From assembly GCA_003024175.1 (NCBI GenBank), contig MDYQ01000286.1, positions 1 through 23,719 on the forward strand: a stretch of 23,719 nt of DNA. The letters run 5' to 3'. The first letter of the stretch is position 1, and each line of letters begins with the position of its first letter. The notes under the pieces are model-generated. The model saw only the letters and a list, made by a program, of their open reading frames with translations, was not told the DNA's origin and ran no database searches. Positions 14,505 through 23,389 of this stretch are shown one piece after another. The translations under genes were made by a program, and so were the position numbers. Source of the DNA: Planoprotostelium fungivorum (taxonomy: Eukaryota > Evosea > Variosea > Cavosteliida > Cavosteliaceae).

Positions 14505-15605
14505 TCATCTTCCTCGTCTTTTCGGCCACTGTGACACTTGCAACAGTCCGCTGGCTGATATCTTTACAGGAGCTATGGGTCTCTGATTCATTGATTCTAC
14601 GTTCTCTATACGTTTCAAAAGGTGATGGCCGTCGACCAGTTGTCTAATTTCTCATCAGCTCGAATACTGACGACAATATCCATTGGACTCACCCGAAAGC
14701 AACATAGTTGGTGTCCATCCATGGAGTGGGTTTAAAGGTGATGTAGAATTGTGAAGAATTCGTGTGAGGTCCCTTGTTCGCCATGCCCAGCACTCCCGCC
14801 TTGTCATGCTTCACGATGAAGTTTTCATCTGTCTTGGATCAGCGCAATTCAGAGAGGAGTCGCACCCGCAAAGTGTGATCCGTAGATGGATGCACCTGCG
14901 TCGCCTCCACCACCCAGGACATCTGACCATCGTCAATGTTCACGTCACCCCGGGATGAACGTTCATCACCTCCTCCTTGGATCCAGCCATTTGGAACCAC
15001 TCTGTGGATGACAGATCCCACGTACGATAGCTCTGGATTTTGTGCAGTGGCGATGGCGATGAAATTGTCACAGGTCTTTGGAAGTGTTTGCTTGTATAAT
15101 TGGAGCACTAATCGTTCTGGAGCCTCATCACCGACGTTCACATCGAAATAGACAAATGCATCCTGCGCATCTCTCAATCATTCGATGATGTGATTCGTTG
15201 CTTACTCCCGATTGTTCAATATAGTGTTTCAGAGCAGTGTTGGCGATGGCCTGATACAGCGGTTCTGGACGCACGTCGGTGTAACCAAATTCGCTCTTCA
15301 TCCAAGAGATGAATTCGATCACTGAAGACGTGTGACCTCTCTTTGGGATGAAAGCAACAAATTCTGCACTGGCTGGAACCTAGCCGGCGTCACCATCGCA
15401 CACACCGTTTGGATCACCTTCTCATTCTGTTCTTTGTAAGAATCCCAAGAGAAAGGAAGGAATTCTTCTATCTCGTATTGAATTCGCAGCCCTTGTGCCT
15501 AAGGGTGTGAGATGATGCAAGATTGACAACAGAACACACTGTGAATGCTGCCTTAGATCTTTGATAGTCGATGGAATGGATGTTTCCTATCAGCTTGTAC
15601 GCCAT
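14505..15605 (-). CDS. PPIL6: Cyclophilin-type peptidyl-prolyl isomerase, PPIL6-like
   Basis: Seven exons: 15605-15540, 15498-15418, 15379-15206, 15162-14970, 14922-14866, 14828-14693 and 14643-14505. The total is 846 nt, 281 residues, ending TGA. The C-terminal cyclophilin fold is clear: [68 protein letters not shown], then [29 protein letters not shown], with NGW in place of the usual KGFM, and a roughly 115-residue N-terminal extension ([20 protein letters not shown]) are PPIL6 hallmarks. The active-site Arg of HRV and the QF pair are kept. The usual active-site Trp position lies in [17 protein letters not shown]6 is expressed in ciliated cells and conserved in ciliated species. The start is at MAYKLIGN; the frame stays open upstream, so a longer N-terminus is possible. 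Confidence 0.88.
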
Positions 15606-15813
15606 CGCGATTGCGTCTTTGTGATGCTGCTCTCCTGAGCTATTTCTGGTCGTCTCAATGATTTGATCCACGCGATCACAAAAGTGAAAATGAATCCTTG
15701 TAAAATGAATCGACGTGTGGTTTATCTCAGAGCAGACCAATGCGCTCCGCAGGGAGATAGAAGAGTGAACGATGGTTGCTAGATATGGAAGAGACAAAGA
15801 CTGCACGTCCGCA

Positions 15814-16404
15814 GATTCGTGGTGAGATGACACGTTGACTCTAAACTCTCTATTCATCATCGTTTTGTCTGGCTTTGGCTAGTCTCGCGACCAGTTCAGC
15901 CTTCGACCCTCCCACAGGCTGTTTTCTCTTCTTGAGCTCAGCTCTGAGATCTACAACGCGTAACTTGGATAGATCCTCGATCAAGCTGTCTTCGTCCTCT
16001 TCACTTTGCTCTTCCTCTGAATGATCGTCTGTATCTCCGTCTGCATCTCCGTCCGAATGATTCTCCGACTCTTCTGTACTCTTGCACACGTCAGATGATG
16101 TCATATATGTCATGCCTATAGCAGCTCACCCCTTTCTCTGCTCTCGTGAACATGATCATGTGACAACACATCGTATAGGATGTATGGGTGCCACACTCGC
16201 AACATCGCCACAAAGGTCTCTCTGCCTCTTCCTCATCGATCGCATAGAACCTGATTCCCTCTTGCGCGTCGTCATCATCGTCGTCACTTTCTCCCGTGTC
16301 TTCATCATCCTCTTCTGCATCATCAATACCTTCTTCTTCCTCACGATTGACTTTCTGACACGCTGCATGTCATCAGATGGATGTCCGTTTCCGAGATCTC
16401 TCAC
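15814..16404 (-). repeat. Left arm of a large inverted duplication (SAP-gene 3' end)
   Basis: About 590 bp covering intron 3, exon 4, intron 4, exon 5 and about 36 bp past the stop of the SAP gene. It is repeated in opposite orientation at 22793-23389, about 6.4 kb away. The core differs by only a handful of bases; the match ends near ACGAATC (15814-15820) on one side and near the exon 3 donor (16398-16404) on the other. Confidence 0.9.
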
Positions 16405-17738
16405 GTGTTGTGTCTCTGATGTGTGTGTGTTCCTCTACTGTAAGATATGTCTTATCTTTCTCCCTCAGCAATACTAGCTGTGGAGCAGCGGCGACCCATC
16501 CATCTTCGATCAACAATCTGATCTTCTCTTTGTGTTTGTCACGATCGATATCATCTACATCTCGTGTCTATCATCCTATTAACATCCAGCGTGTGCATAT
16601 TTTCTCTACCTCTTTGTCGTCTTGCGCGTTGTAGTTGATCAGTAGTCCGAATCTGTCCAGATCTTCCGGTACATCATCCACATATTCCGCGTTGAATCCT
16701 CCTCCATCGCTCTTTGCGTATCCGAGGCGTCTTCCCTCCTTATGTGGCACTCTTGTGTATTCCGGATGTGCAAAGACATTCTGGCATCTTACGTACTCTG
16801 AGAGCACTGCGTGGACGGACATGCCGCGGGTGAGGAGTGGATCGGGCCACGTTACACCAGACGACATCTCTGACAGATCTCCCTTCTGACATACTAACAT
16901 GGTGCACCAATAGATGACGGGGCCGTAGTCACCCGGTGAGCAGTGATTGTAAGCGTATAATAAGTCGAAGCTGACTTCGTAATGTGGCATGATGATGTGG
17001 AAGTTACCGGTCGGATGTGGCTGGTCATCGAGGGGATAGAACATGTAACCTACGCCGTTGTGATCGTGATTGATGACGGCGGAATGTAGAGAGCAAGAAT
17101 AACCGAGCAGAGTAGCTCTCTGTAGCATGTCACTTGTCGATGTCGAGAGACGACGAACGTCTACCTCATAAAGCCGTTTGTCTTCTCCAAATAAAGCGTC
17201 GAGAGTGGGTCTGACCCATCTCGGACATCTTAACACGAATCCGAGGCGATCCTCATTGATCACGTTATCTTCTCTCAAAGTGGCATTGAACCTCCCAGAT
17301 GTGATCCCATCTAGCGCTGTAACTCCATCGTTGGAGTTCCGCAGCTCATCGCAATAGGGGGCAGCATCCCAGGAAGTTTCCGTTGGTAGACGATACTCCT
17401 CGGGAGGATAATTGTCACCATCAGTCAGTTGTGAAAAAGCAGCTCGTAAGTTGATGAAGAGCTTGAGATTGTCTGTAGTCGAGAATTTCTTGTCCATCTC
17501 GTTATACGCCTCTATTTCTTTCCAAAATGGAAAAGTTTGGTCCGCCAGCCTCTTCCATACACTCGATACCTGCCATCTTGTTCAGACCTGACCTTGTGGT
17601 CACATCACGACTTCAAGAGCTCACCTGTCTGAGTGTCTGCCACACAGTCTTCGCTTCTTCTCTCGTGCAGTCAAAGTACTGTCTCAGGATAGTGGCAAGG
17701 ATGATGCCATTGATGTTGAAGAGTACTGTTGGCTGCAT
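15850..17738 (-). CDS. SAP-domain protein with Cys cluster, otherwise unrecognised
   Basis: Five exons: 17738-17625, 17569-16610, 16525-16405, 16362-16130 and 16080-15850. The total is 1659 nt, 552 residues, ending TAG. The exon 2/3 join (acceptor near 16526) is the least certain. The first roughly 400 residues match nothing I recognise; they are rich in Tyr and Asp with YNHCSPGDYGPVIYW and WKRLADQTFPFWKEIEAYNE. Next comes an acidic stretch (GIDDAEEDDEDTGESDDDDD), a Cys-rich knot (LWRCCECGTHTSYTMCCH) that could bind zinc, and a second acidic stretch. The C-terminus is a SAP motif (LSKLRVVDLRAELKKRKQPV, then a KAELVARLAKA helix), a DNA-binding helix pair typical of chromatin proteins. A nuclear DNA-associated role is inferred. 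Its 3' end is duplicated at 22793-23389. Confidence 0.7.
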
Positions 17739-18059
17739 GACTCGCTGTGATCTGAAAGAATGCTCAACACCTCCGCTGTGACGTCTGTCAGAATTACATC
17801 AGTGGTATTTAGGGGTTCAGCCTCCGCCGTAATCCCTCACACGCTCAATTCTTCAATACCAGCCTCCGCCGTGACAATTGTTTTCTTACATGGCCTCCGT
17901 GCAGAGAATTTTAATAAGTCATGCAGTCCATTCCACAAGGCAGCTCTTATAACTTGTGTCTTGTACGACTTCGTAAATAATGACTGTCTCCTCTTGAAAC
18001 CCTCAAAATCTCAAATCTAAGAATTTGGGTACGTCGTTATAATCGAGTTTGTACAATTT
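17739..18059. other. Intergenic spacer with three short repeats
   Basis: 321 bp between the SAP gene start and the stop of the small membrane protein. Three copies of a 15-bp word similar to AGCCTCCGCCGTGAC lie at 17768-17782, 17819-17833 and 17861-17875. A plus-strand frame runs through them but has no recognisable product. The repeats lie 30-140 bp upstream of the SAP gene's ATG and may be promoter elements. Confidence 0.5.
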
Positions 18060-18542
18060 CTATTCTTCTGTCTTTTCCTCTTGCGTTGGGGCGTGCCGTT
18101 GCCTCCATCTAGCAATGATCGGTGTGATGGTGATTGTGATGATCATTCTTATTGGTGATGTTGCTTGGGTGCTGATGGCGGCCTGTGATGCATCAATGTG
18201 CTGACTCACAGATCGCAATCGTCTCACCACTAATAACTTTGCACCTGCACCTGACGATTCAGAATTCGAAGACATTCCCATCTTGTTAATCAGTTTTTGG
18301 ATGTCGATGCCGAGCGATATGAGAAGGAAAAACAATGCGAAGGTGAGAATAGACCCAAAAAAATGTATCATGAGGGCGAGACGTCCGTATTGCACGAACA
18401 CCTGCATCTGTTTCAGAACAGATGATTATTACCCGCATCCTCCAACGATCGATCTCACCTGCTGGAACCGAATCCTCAGCCCAGTAAATCCCGTCGGCGG
18501 CGCCTCATTATTAAGAGGTTTGCGATGATCCTCCTCTCCCAT
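18060..18542 (-). CDS. Small membrane protein, unrecognised
   Basis: Two exons, 18542-18459 and 18407-18060, total 432 nt, 143 residues, ending TAG. The 51-nt intron begins GTGAGA and ends AACAG and keeps frame. A polar N-terminus (MGEEDHRKPLNNEAPPTGF) leads into one strong membrane helix (LALMIHFFGSILTFALFFLL at about residues 40-59). A Ser-rich linker follows, then a weaker hydrophobic stretch (MIITITITPII) near the basic/acidic tail. No signal peptide is obvious. A further small intron in the second half (donor near GTGAGTCAGC) cannot be ruled out and would change the tail. The family is unknown to me. It lies 139 bp downstream of the EXOC2 stop on the same strand. Confidence 0.6.
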
Positions 18543-18681
18543 CGCTTCGCGAATCTCAAACACCTTCCGGTTACCCGTTGTAAAATCTCGTTCATTTCAA
18601 AGATGTAGTTTTATCGCACACGAAACACAGTTTCACTTCGACATTTCACAGCGACAAATCTCATCTTCATACATAGCATCA

Positions 18682-21600
18682 TCATTCATTCTCCTGAAAC
18701 AACGGAGGCATCTCGAACAACTGGATGCTCTCAAACATAACGCTGGTCTTCTTCAATGTCCCCTCCACTACCTTGTTCACCAAGAAGCTACGATCAGCAT
18801 CTATCACATCGTCAATCTACAACCCGCCACCGGATCAACTCTTCACCTTTCGTCTTTGGAGTTTTTCCGGACTCTGATAGAGAAGCTTGAAGGATATCTT
18901 GCAGTTGCTCCAGTAATTGTTCCGCAAACTCCCCGATGAAAGGGCGGAGTGTGTACTGAATGAACTGCACGTCGATCTTGAAGAGTGTGAGATGATGATC
19001 ACCATCATCGGCGGACGTGGATGACGATGATGGTCACCTGCAGTTGAGCGAGGCCACCACGACTGAAAGAAGTCATCCTGGGTATGGATTCTAAGAAGAC
19101 CTGAAACACGTCAGACCTGATCGTGTCGATCGTGATGCGATGTGATCATGATCGTGATGTGATCATTGTGCGGTGATGATCGTCGTGATGATGTATGACC
19201 TGAAAGAGTGACGAAGTGAGGGACACTAAAGTCGACTGTGCCGCGTCGATCTGCAACGTGTTGATGATCTCGTGGTGCACGAAGACAACATACAGGAGCG
19301 AATCCAATACGTAACGACTGACAGCTGACGCGGTCAGACACTTGCGTCGTTACGCAGTGGCTCGTTCTCACCGTTGGGATCGACGTCAGTCTGCCAATTG
19401 ATTCCTGATAGTAAGAGCCCCCTCCTGACGATCCAACCCAACCGGATCGTTTTGTTTCTGACGTACCGAGAGAGGAGAAGTTCTTCTAATTCGGTCAAGA
19501 TCTGTGACACGCCCTACGAGAATGAGTCGTGTGAAATTCGCTGGAGAAGTGGTGGAGAATCGATGGATAATCGATGGAGAAGTAGTGGAGTTTCGATCAC
19601 CTGGCTGAAATTCGGTGGCTTCGTTGATTTGATTGTCTTTGCAAAAGAGATTTCCAATTCTGCGACGCCCAAAATCCGAATGTAATAAGAATTTGCCATC
19701 GTGAGAGCCAGATTGTGATCTTCTTTCGACAGATATTCCTCTTCTCTCTATTTCCTCCACGTCAATTTTCACGTAGATTTCGCGGAAAACTCACGTATTC
19801 CAATTTCCTCTCGCCGATGAGATCGTGAGTCTGCTGTCTCTCCAACTTCATCGTGGTTCCCTCTCCTCTCGATGCACTGATGCCTAAAGAATGTAGACAA
19901 TCAGAATAGACCAGTAGACACTCTCTGATGTTGTCTTCTACCTTCTTCATGTGCGACTGTGTGTACGTCAGAATGTCTACATTATCTTTCGAGAGAAAAC
20001 TCACGGAATTTTCGGTGACAACTCCTTCGATGCGTTGGAAGAGAGAGAGCATGAAATCGAGGAAATCTGTGGGAATTTTCGTGATGCGGATGTTTGATTT
20101 CCTCTCCACGGTCCATTTCTCCTTCTTGTGTAATTCTTCCAATTCTGTCTCCCTTCAGTTACACATTTCGATATCCTTCCTCTATAGATCGTCAATCGAA
20201 AAACTTTACCTCGCGTGGCGCTTTTGAAGAGAGAGTCGATGTAGAAAGAGGTGACGGCCTCGTTCAGCTTCTGCAAGGGTTGAAGGAAGAGCGTCCATAT
20301 ATTCATATCGAACAGCGTCTGATAGCACTGCTCTCGTTCATTCCTCTCTTCTCTTCACATCTTCACCATGGCAATCTCCATCGTGCATACTCTCGCGATG
20401 TCGAAATCTTCCAGGCGAAATTTCGTTCGGTCTTCGCTGAAGATAACGGTTCTGATCTTTTCACAATAGAAATCGATGATCAATAGATTTAGATCCATGT
20501 AAGAACCCTGTCCACTCTCGTTATTTCACATTCATGATAGTGAATCGATGGTGAAAGCAATCAACGATGTATAGATGTGGATGTGATGAGATAGTTTGAT
20601 CATCAACGGTGGCTGTAGCTGTGATGAACGCCTCACCTGATTGGGATCGTCCGTCGCGTTTGCACCTCTACTCCTTCCACTCTTCTCTTTCTCTCTTCCT
20701 TCTTCCTTCTCCTTTGGATGCTGCTCTCCATCATCAGACGAGAACGTATCATCGATGTCACCTCTAAATCACCAGTCATAGCTGCCTCCGTGATCTTCCA
20801 ATGCTTTGGAAAATAATTCAACAGAACGCTCGTGATGTCCCTGACGATCTTGTCCATCCTCCTCGATTTGTCTGTGGCTGATCGACGATCAATCGACGAT
20901 GTCGATCTCGATGAGAATCGCATCGACTCACATCCGGGTTTGTAAGATGCCGCCATGAATGCCATCATCCTGCAGATCTCGTCTTGTGAATACAACAAAT
21001 ACATGTTGATCGGGTCCTCTGGTGATTTTCCGAGAGAAACGACGGTGCTGATGGTCCTCTTTGCATCTTCTACGTTCATGTTGATGTCTTCTAATGATTT
21101 CAACAGACTCTCTGAATATCTGATGATGGTCAGGGGAGGGGAGGGAGGAGAGGTCACCTATTGACGATCTTGTGGATCTCAGATGAGATCTGTTGGAAGA
21201 TGCTGATCTGCGTCCCGGACAATAGATCGCCGATCCTCCGGTAATCGGAGACAACCTTCTCTCCTTTGTTCTGGATGACGATCAGGTGGATGATGATGAT
21301 GCTGTTATTGTTGTCTTTGTCCTTGTTGTTGATGATGTCGTTCATGTTATTGTTCTTGTTTTTGTGATGTTGTTGATGATGACACGTGATGACGCAGGAG
21401 ATGCGATGTGATGTCGGTTATGATGATGATCACGGTGATCACCTGTTGGATGTGTCTCTGTATTCTGACGGGTGTAGAGAAGATGTACTGATAGCCGTTG
21501 ATGATCTTCAATTGTTTCTTGATCTTATCTGCCTCCCCCTTCCTCTTCAAAAGATCGTCGAAGATCTCTCGCATCTCCCTCTGGAGTACTGCGCCGAGTC

Positions 21601-22572
21601 AGTTCCCGCCAAAATATCTACGTCATTCACCCAGGTAACCCTCTTCCACTTGCTTCGGTGTTCCGGCTTTGGCGAGTTTGTGGTAGTTCAACGTCTCGTG
21701 GACATCTTCAAACGTTCAGATCGAAAGTGAAGGAGGTCTCACTGTCTATGATGTCTTTGCAGCTGACGAACTTGGGGAAATTCTCTCTGACCAATGCCTT
21801 CAGACTTCGGTTTCGGTTCTTAATCGCGTCGTCGAAAGAGCTGAATCCGGTCTGTCTCACGTCATTCTCATGGTGATCCGCATCATAACATAATGAGTTG
21901 AAGCACGATGGAGTATGTTGAGTCGTTTCACCTTCAACTTGTTGAAAGGAGTGGAACGATGGACGGAGACCAGATACATCATGGCGTCGAACTCTTCATT
22001 CGTGAATGATAACTTCCCCGTCGTCGTTTCAAAGTGTCTGAGATAATGTCGATCGATGAAGCATGAGATGCATTCTCCCACTTGGATAACTTCTCCAGAT
22101 CACCCGTTGTGACTTTCTGACCTGTGATTGGATCTCGATTGAGATCTCCCTCCTCTTCTTTGCTTCTCTTCGTCTTAGCTCTGTCATCTCTTCAATATTC
22201 GAAGGCGAGAGGACCTAGTAGACAACATCTCACCCCCTCAACCCAAAATCGGCGGGTGTCAGAAGAGATGCATCCATCAAAGCATGTCTGGCGGGTAATT
22301 TCGTGAGTGAGTTCTTCCTCTGACTCTTCTTGATGGCGGTATCACCCTGTTTATCATCATCGTCTGAGGACGTCTCTTCGTCGGGTAATTTGAGTGGTTC
22401 CTTCTCTTCCAATTCAGCGACTTCGTCCCATGTTTGTGGTTCCAAATCTACATCTAAACTCTTGGGTTCTGATGATGATGTTAACCTCGTAAATCCTACG
22501 ATCGATGAGAGGATCACCTTGCACGACGGGCTTCCACCATCGTTTCTCGAGGGTCACGTATTCATCGCTCAT
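18682..22572 (-). CDS. EXOC2: Exocyst complex subunit SEC5 (EXOC2)
   Basis: A long, intron-rich gene. Well-supported exons: 22572-22518, 22468-22234, 22189-22082, 22037-21932, 21851-21743, 21705-21631, 21588-21443, 21270-21158, 21119-20932, the 20877 exon, and at the end 19317-19200, 19100-19038, 18976-18847 and 18800-18682. Exon borders in about 19.3-20.75 kb are only partly resolved. Sec5-type segments in order: LSFTNEEFDAMMYLVSVH, VRENFPKFVSCKDIID, GYQYIFSTPVRIQRHI joined to NKGEKVVSDYRRIGDLLSGT (the conserved Sec5 core), VLLNYFPKHWKIT, ELHKKEKWTVE, DHNLALTMANSYYIRI and VVFVHHEIINTLQIDA. Sec5 is a rod-like subunit of the octameric exocyst that tethers secretory vesicles to the plasma membrane. 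The IPT/TIG domain at the N-terminus of animal EXOC2 is not seen; an acidic, Lys-rich leader takes its place. Confidence 0.85.
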
Positions 22573-22721
22573 CGTGCCAGGCGCATCCCAGAAAATGAAA
22601 TTTTACAATTGTAATTGATAAGCAGTCTCATCTGTGTCTCGATTGCAGGATCATTCTGTCGATGAATTGTTAGCCACTGTCGTCGGTGGACTGACTCTTG
22701 TGACTTGTGATGAATCAATTT

Positions 22722-22763
22722 ATCACAAACTTAACCCCATTCATCACAAACTTAACCCCATTC
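22722..22763. repeat. Exact 21-bp tandem repeat, two copies
   Basis: ATCACAAACTTAACCCCATTC occurs twice back to back (22722-22742 and 22743-22763), followed by ATCAG. It lies about 30 bp before the left edge of the duplicated SAP segment and has no counterpart at the left copy, so it belongs to the insertion-side flank. Confidence 0.9.
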
Positions 22764-22792
22764 ATCAGTCGAACCGCGAAATGGACTGCGTG

Positions 22793-23389
22793 CACGGAGA
22801 GATAGATCTCGGAAACGGACATCCATCTGATGACATGCAGCGTGTCAGAAAGTCAATCGCGAGGAAGAAGAAGGTATTGATGATGCAGAAGAGGATGATG
22901 AAGACACGGGAGAAAGTGACGACGATGATGACGACGCGCAAGAGGGAATCAGGTTCTATGCGATCGATGAGGAAGAGGCAGAGAGACCTTTGTGGCGATG
23001 TTGCGAGTGTGGCACCCATACATCCTATACGATGTGTTGTCACATGATCATGTTCACGAGAGCAGAGAAAGGGGTGAGCTGCTATAGGCATGACATATAT
23101 GACATCATCTGACGTGTGCAAGAGTACAGAAGAGTCGGAGAATCATTCGGACGGAGATGCAGATGGAGATACAGACGATCATTCAGAGGAAGAGCAAAGT
23201 GAAGAGGACGAAGACAGCTTGATCGAGGATCTATCCAAGTTACGCATTGTAGATCTCAGAGCTGAGCTCAAGAAGAGAAAACAGCCTGTGGGAGGGTTGA
23301 AGGCTGAACTGGTCGCGAGACTAGCCAAAGCCAGACAAAACGATGCTGAATAGAGAGGTTTGAGTCAACGTGTCATCACATCACGAATC
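22793..23389 (+). pseudogene. Truncated inverted copy of the SAP-gene 3' end
   Basis: Holds intron 3, exon 4, intron 4, exon 5 and about 36 bp of 3' flank of the SAP gene, in opposite orientation. Introns are retained, so it arose by DNA duplication, not by reverse transcription. The promoter, exons 1-3 and the exon 3 donor are absent; the GTGAGAG donor is replaced by GGAGAGATAG. Frames stay open: the coding differences I see in exons 4-5 are one silent change and three amino-acid changes in the SAP end (Val to Ile, Ser to Leu, Asp to Ala). The acceptor CATGCAG and the intact exon 4/5 splice sites could still serve a new upstream exon, so a chimeric gene is possible, but none is evident. The terminal coding frame is 23090-23353. 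Confidence 0.8.

Follow-up and report, generated by a model that had tools for sequence, protein, structure and literature searches.

Results

The window, by which we mean the whole 23,719-nucleotide stretch of DNA analysed, carries a SAP-domain gene on its reverse strand (15850 to 17738). Our hand-spliced model has five exons (17738–17625, 17569–16610, 16567–16405, 16362–16130 and 16080–15850) and encodes 566 amino acids, with the ATG at 17738, the stop codon at 15852–15850 and introns of 55, 42, 42 and 49 bp. When the whole protein was compared with Pfam, a SAP domain was located at residues 526–560 (E = 2e-9; 37.2 bits against a curated cut-off of 23.9). The rest of the protein gave nothing above the Pfam cut-off, DUF6572 reaching E = 0.049 and 14.3 bits against 27. 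The best match to a solved structure has E = 0.014, and the top three of 10 such matches cover the SAP domain. Towards the C-terminus lie, besides the SAP domain, an acidic region and, as judged by eye, a cysteine-rich stretch. The cysteine-rich stretch, CCECG...MCCH, sits within 16362–16130 on the reverse strand and again within 22841–23073 on the forward strand, flanked (by eye) by two acidic runs; it is possibly a small zinc-binding motif and has no Pfam profile match above the cut-off. Searches of viral and prokaryotic contig collections gave no relative of the SAP protein, and two DNA patterns from the repeat described below had none in virus and prokaryote collections; both results carry little weight for a eukaryote.

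Also on the reverse strand are an open frame with a FAM210A/B-like domain (18063–18425; Pfam E = 1.1e-12) and the Sec5 (EXOC2) exocyst gene (18815–22572). The latter has several exons, an ATG placed at 22572 by inspection and an uncertain 3′ limit; its Pfam Sec5 matches fall in profile order (57–94, 133–178, 223–397, 500–603 and a weak 764–807, E = 0.07). Upstream of the assumed Sec5 start a 21-bp unit (ATTCATCACAAACTTAACCCC) is repeated 2.4 times at 22718–22767, before the second repeat copy is reached; the core of this unit, CTTAACCCC, is absent elsewhere in the window. The left neighbour of the SAP gene tail is a cyclophilin-type peptidyl-prolyl isomerase gene (14842–15605, reverse strand). 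Its Pfam match covers 14842–15177 (E = 2.2e-12) and its start at 15605 is assumed by inspection, with no spliced model joining the two; in the same region the frame 15471–15608 has no Pfam match and 15131–15379 has none above the cut-off. No mating-type gene was found among the 20 open frames of the window scanned by Pfam, and neither Rfam at the gathering score nor ARAGORN (bacterial code) found an RNA gene in the window. On general grounds, short introns, Sec5 and a FAM210-like frame might suggest a fungus, perhaps a basidiomycete; the contig comes from Planoprotostelium fungivorum. We note that GATC occurs 241 times in the 23.7 kb, against about 93 expected from equal base frequencies, and that GATGATG-type tracts look common by eye.

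Comparison of the window with itself (BLASTN, E up to 1e-3) gave one long non-self match, an inverted repeat of 586 bp. Copy A (15814–16399, reverse strand) and copy B (22804–23389, forward strand) align without gaps at 98.46% identity (E = 0.0), and the longest run of perfect identity is 303 bp. The comparison listed one further non-self match, a perfect palindrome of 32 bp at 589–620. A spacer of 6404 bp (16400–22803) separates the copies and contains the 5′ part of the SAP gene, the FAM210-like frame and the Sec5 gene. The sequence-only reading had proposed an inverted duplication of the SAP gene tail, introns included, about 590 bp long and 6.4 kb apart, with a membrane-protein gene and EXOC2 between the copies; this observation is borne out.

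Copy A comprises the final 37 bp of intron 3, exons 4 and 5 with intron 4 between them, the stop codon and the next 36 bp of 3′ flank, and it is the only copy whose reading frame continues into upstream exons of the hand-spliced model. Copy B is an orphan, inverted copy of this tail lying 231 bp (22573–22803) from the assumed Sec5 start. It retains the intron-3 acceptor (ending at 22840) and intron 4, and its reading frame is free of stops and frameshifts; the 5′ exons of the SAP gene have no counterpart there. The SAP domains of both copies pass the Pfam cut-off alone. Relative to the SAP gene, copy B opens with the sixth base of intron 3 and ends 36 bp past the stop codon. The first base of intron 3 is 16404, whereas the match begins at 16399; the first five intron bases, GT included, are therefore missing from copy B. 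An odd, sharp left edge at a splice donor had been remarked upon earlier. The edge is indeed near the donor, although not at it, and as the donor itself lies outside the copied stretch we regard the position as weakly odd at most.

The copied intron sequence, 37 bp from intron 3 and the 49 bp of intron 4, shows no difference between the two copies. Identity is high in coding and non-coding parts alike, introns among them, and the copies face opposite ways, as is expected of an inverted segmental duplication of a partial gene. A retrocopy is ruled out because the introns are kept; by inspection of 60-bp flanks there is also no poly(A) tract at the copy end and no target-site duplication. In four comparisons of the flanks, each against 300 mononucleotide shuffles, no residual similarity was detected beyond the repeat edges. 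The fraction of shuffles reaching the observed score was 0.10 for the outer flanks (330 bp), and 0.51 for the inner flanks (about 400 bp); the left flank against the spacer end gave 0.63 and 0.22 in the two orientations. An older, wider duplication was rejected on the same four comparisons.

Two routes to such a duplication would fit. In the first, replication-based template switching or break repair would have pasted the inverted tail upstream of Sec5 with nothing inverted; we give this close to an even chance. The repeat limits match no visible element and similarity stops at the edges, both in its favour, although the pairing of the copies with the segment ends is accounted for equally well by staggered breaks. 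In the second route, which we put somewhat short of even, staggered double-strand breaks would have inverted the segment, with the repeat as the resulting scar. The breaks at one end would have straddled the gene tail; once the overhangs were filled in, each end carried a copy, and the 6.4-kb segment would now stand reversed from its ancestral orientation. An inverted copy at each end of a segment, in some cases with a truncated gene, is described as the mark of this process (PMC5080602), and flanks without leftover similarity are what breaks without homology predict. A dispersed inverted copy would, however, look identical, and staggered breaks do not predict the clustering of edge differences described below. 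A staggered-break origin would be one form of the duplication proposed in our main reading and does not conflict with it.

Alignment of copies A and B gave nine differences in 586 bp, four of them within the first 540 bp (A/B positions 16343/22860, 16039/23164, 15957/23246 and 15905/23298). The remaining five lie in the last 44 bp (15857/23346, 15845/23358, 15842/23361, 15825/23378 and 15822/23381), and four of these five are transversions. The four central differences are all CpG transitions; two are synonymous and two change an amino acid (V532I and S549L). Over the coding sequence as a whole there are two synonymous and three nonsynonymous differences, the third amino-acid change, D565A, being the first of the edge cluster. 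The earlier count was about four differences in the central 540 bp, three of them changing amino acids; only two of these four, not three, change residues.

Both the position and the type of the differences are uneven. Five of the nine fall within 36 bp (scan permutation p = 0.005, post hoc). Among sites taken as neutral, two of about 174 differ in the centre (intron and synonymous sites) and four of 36 in the 3′ flank (Fisher p = 0.009, post hoc); the pooled comparison of edge with centre gives p = 0.0002 by the same test (post hoc, no outgroup). The greater density of neutral differences in the 3′ flank than in the centre suggests that the centre has perhaps been homogenised by gene conversion, or else that the 3′ flank is special. 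A recent duplication is plausible; the clustering of differences at the outer edge beside a near-identical centre would also fit an earlier event after which gene conversion reset the centre.

CpG sites of either copy cover 62 of the 540 central positions, and the chance of all four differences falling there is 0.115^4 = 1.7e-4 (post hoc). Evidence for CpG decay in the window is mixed, because CpG is hardly depleted (observed/expected 0.96) though TpG (1.22) and CpA (1.16) are raised. RIP, a repeat-directed mutation process brought to mind by the central CpG transitions, was considered, but four events are too few to judge by and the window shows hardly any CpG depletion. Read as CpG losses, the transitions comprise one in copy A (synonymous) and three in copy B (one synonymous, two amino-acid changing). 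The SAP domain scores 40.9 bits in copy A and 37.5 bits in copy B. This split, together with the lower score of copy B, suggests that copy A is under selection and copy B free of it, the polarity resting on four substitutions and assumed CpG decay with no outgroup.

The repeat is probably a real genomic feature. A chimeric join in the assembly or library, duplicating one locus and perhaps merging two haplotypes, would explain the high identity of A and B, and the start of copy B one base before a GATC site might be taken as its trace. GATC is, however, very common in the window (241 sites). GATCGATC is the mark expected of filled-in ligations; it occurs at three places in the window, none of them a repeat junction, and a restriction-ligation chimera is not supported. 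An assembly foldback is disfavoured because the copies show nine differences, five of them clustered, because the 6.4-kb spacer contains no other long repeat, and because the flanks are distinct on all four sides. An artefact of this kind therefore seems quite improbable.

The open tail frame of copy B, its intact intron 4 and its position 231 bp from the assumed Sec5 start would also be compatible with copy B forming part of a new or alternative gene for the acidic/SAP tail, perhaps sharing a promoter with Sec5. By inspection there is even an in-frame ATG inside the tail. Youth or gene conversion would, however, explain an open frame. We scanned for a first exon, taking ATGs from 22301 to 22830 with GTA or GTG donors in frame to the acceptor. 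Six ATG–donor combinations were obtained, with introns of 230–456 bp compared with 42–55 bp in the SAP gene; the ATG nearest copy B, at 22781, gave no such combination. As none of the six is convincing or independently supported, a new first exon was rejected, and we consider a gene at copy B very unlikely.

The consequences of recombination between the copies were followed in silico. Crossovers at five of five points in the repeat gave a SAP protein of 566 amino acids with between zero and three residues changed. For one crossover point we also checked 600 bp of upstream sequence at each of three assumed gene starts, those of cyclophilin, SAP and Sec5; it was unchanged save for one base, inside the repeat and 592 bp upstream of Sec5. 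The cyclophilin comparison was anchored one base away from the ATG, which is immaterial here. The FAM210-like frame lies within the spacer and would travel along with the inverted segment. A run of 303 bp of perfect identity suffices in principle for homologous recombination, so inversion of the 6404-bp segment would be feasible. With the SAP gene and the upstream regions so little altered, it would also be almost silent for the identified genes. The sequence-only reading had stated that the copies can recombine and invert the segment; the possibility stands.

Discussion

We favour, with a probability of about 0.7, the following account. A DNA-level rather than retrotransposed duplication would have placed a 586-bp inverted 3′ end of the SAP gene upstream of Sec5. 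Copy A is presumably the parent and the working end of the gene, and copy B an orphan fragment on which constraint has relaxed and which is drifting; the CpG-loss pattern and the lower SAP score of copy B are as expected of such a pair. The two copies appear alike enough to exchange sequence by gene conversion. A crossover between them could flip the 6.4-kb segment, the SAP gene then receiving the other tail. No identified gene would be broken, because the copy spans from the interior of an intron to beyond the stop codon. It is conceivable, though unlikely, that the arrangement acts as a silent switch. The tails would then be kept alike by conversion while the segment flips in the population, the SAP gene would alternate between two C-termini (V532I, S549L, D565A) and two downstream contexts with other genes unaffected, and the geometry would be retained because inversion is harmless.

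The duplication seems to be real though not very unusual, and is of note in that flipping should leave the identified genes intact. When a small inverted repeat includes the whole end of a gene, inversion can take place without breaking anything. Such repeats, of which this is one example, may help explain how flips of gene order survive in compact genomes.

The human repeats that mediate inversions are mostly far longer than 586 bp. Recombination between them flips the enclosed segment, as it might in our locus, and such inversions are reported to be recurrent in 11 of 16 analysable cases (PMC3961182); the human cases differ in having population data behind them. Topic searches of the literature, made without the name of the SAP gene or the organism, did not return the present locus. 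The inversions of Drosophila subobscura attributed to staggered breaks share with it inverted duplicates, in some cases of truncated genes, at the segment ends, and duplicated fragments of 380 and 128 bp are among those described (PMC5080602). The same account gives staggered breaks as the only mechanism, out of three, to leave duplications, and in D. subobscura, unlike here, the non-inverted arrangement is known.

At the MAT locus of Hansenula (Ogataea) polymorpha, inverted repeats identical over 2049 bp are described, and inversion between them switches mating type; at a distance of about 18 kb, the second locus bears an oppositely oriented C-terminal half of SLA2 (PMC4238957). The likeness lies in inverted repeats that bound a segment and in a truncated gene end at its far side. 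The 20 frames scanned here include no mating-type gene, in contrast, and inversion would be nearly silent. In the flip/flop region of Saccharomyces chromosome XIV, a 4.2 kb inverted repeat with whole genes, its copies 24 kb apart, is reported in both orientations among long-read assemblies (11 REF, 22 INV); gene conversion is held responsible for the near-identity of its copies, inversion being a by-product (PMC9731477). No change of orientation was recorded there in about 53,800 mitoses and 950 meioses (PMC9731477), which, given repeats far longer than ours, argues against frequent flipping. Our locus is smaller, at 586 bp, comprises a gene tail only and is known from one sequence, but it shares with flip/flop a gene-bearing inverted repeat around a segment of single-copy genes. 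In its arrangement the locus resembles both the flip/flop region of yeast and the MAT repeats of Hansenula.
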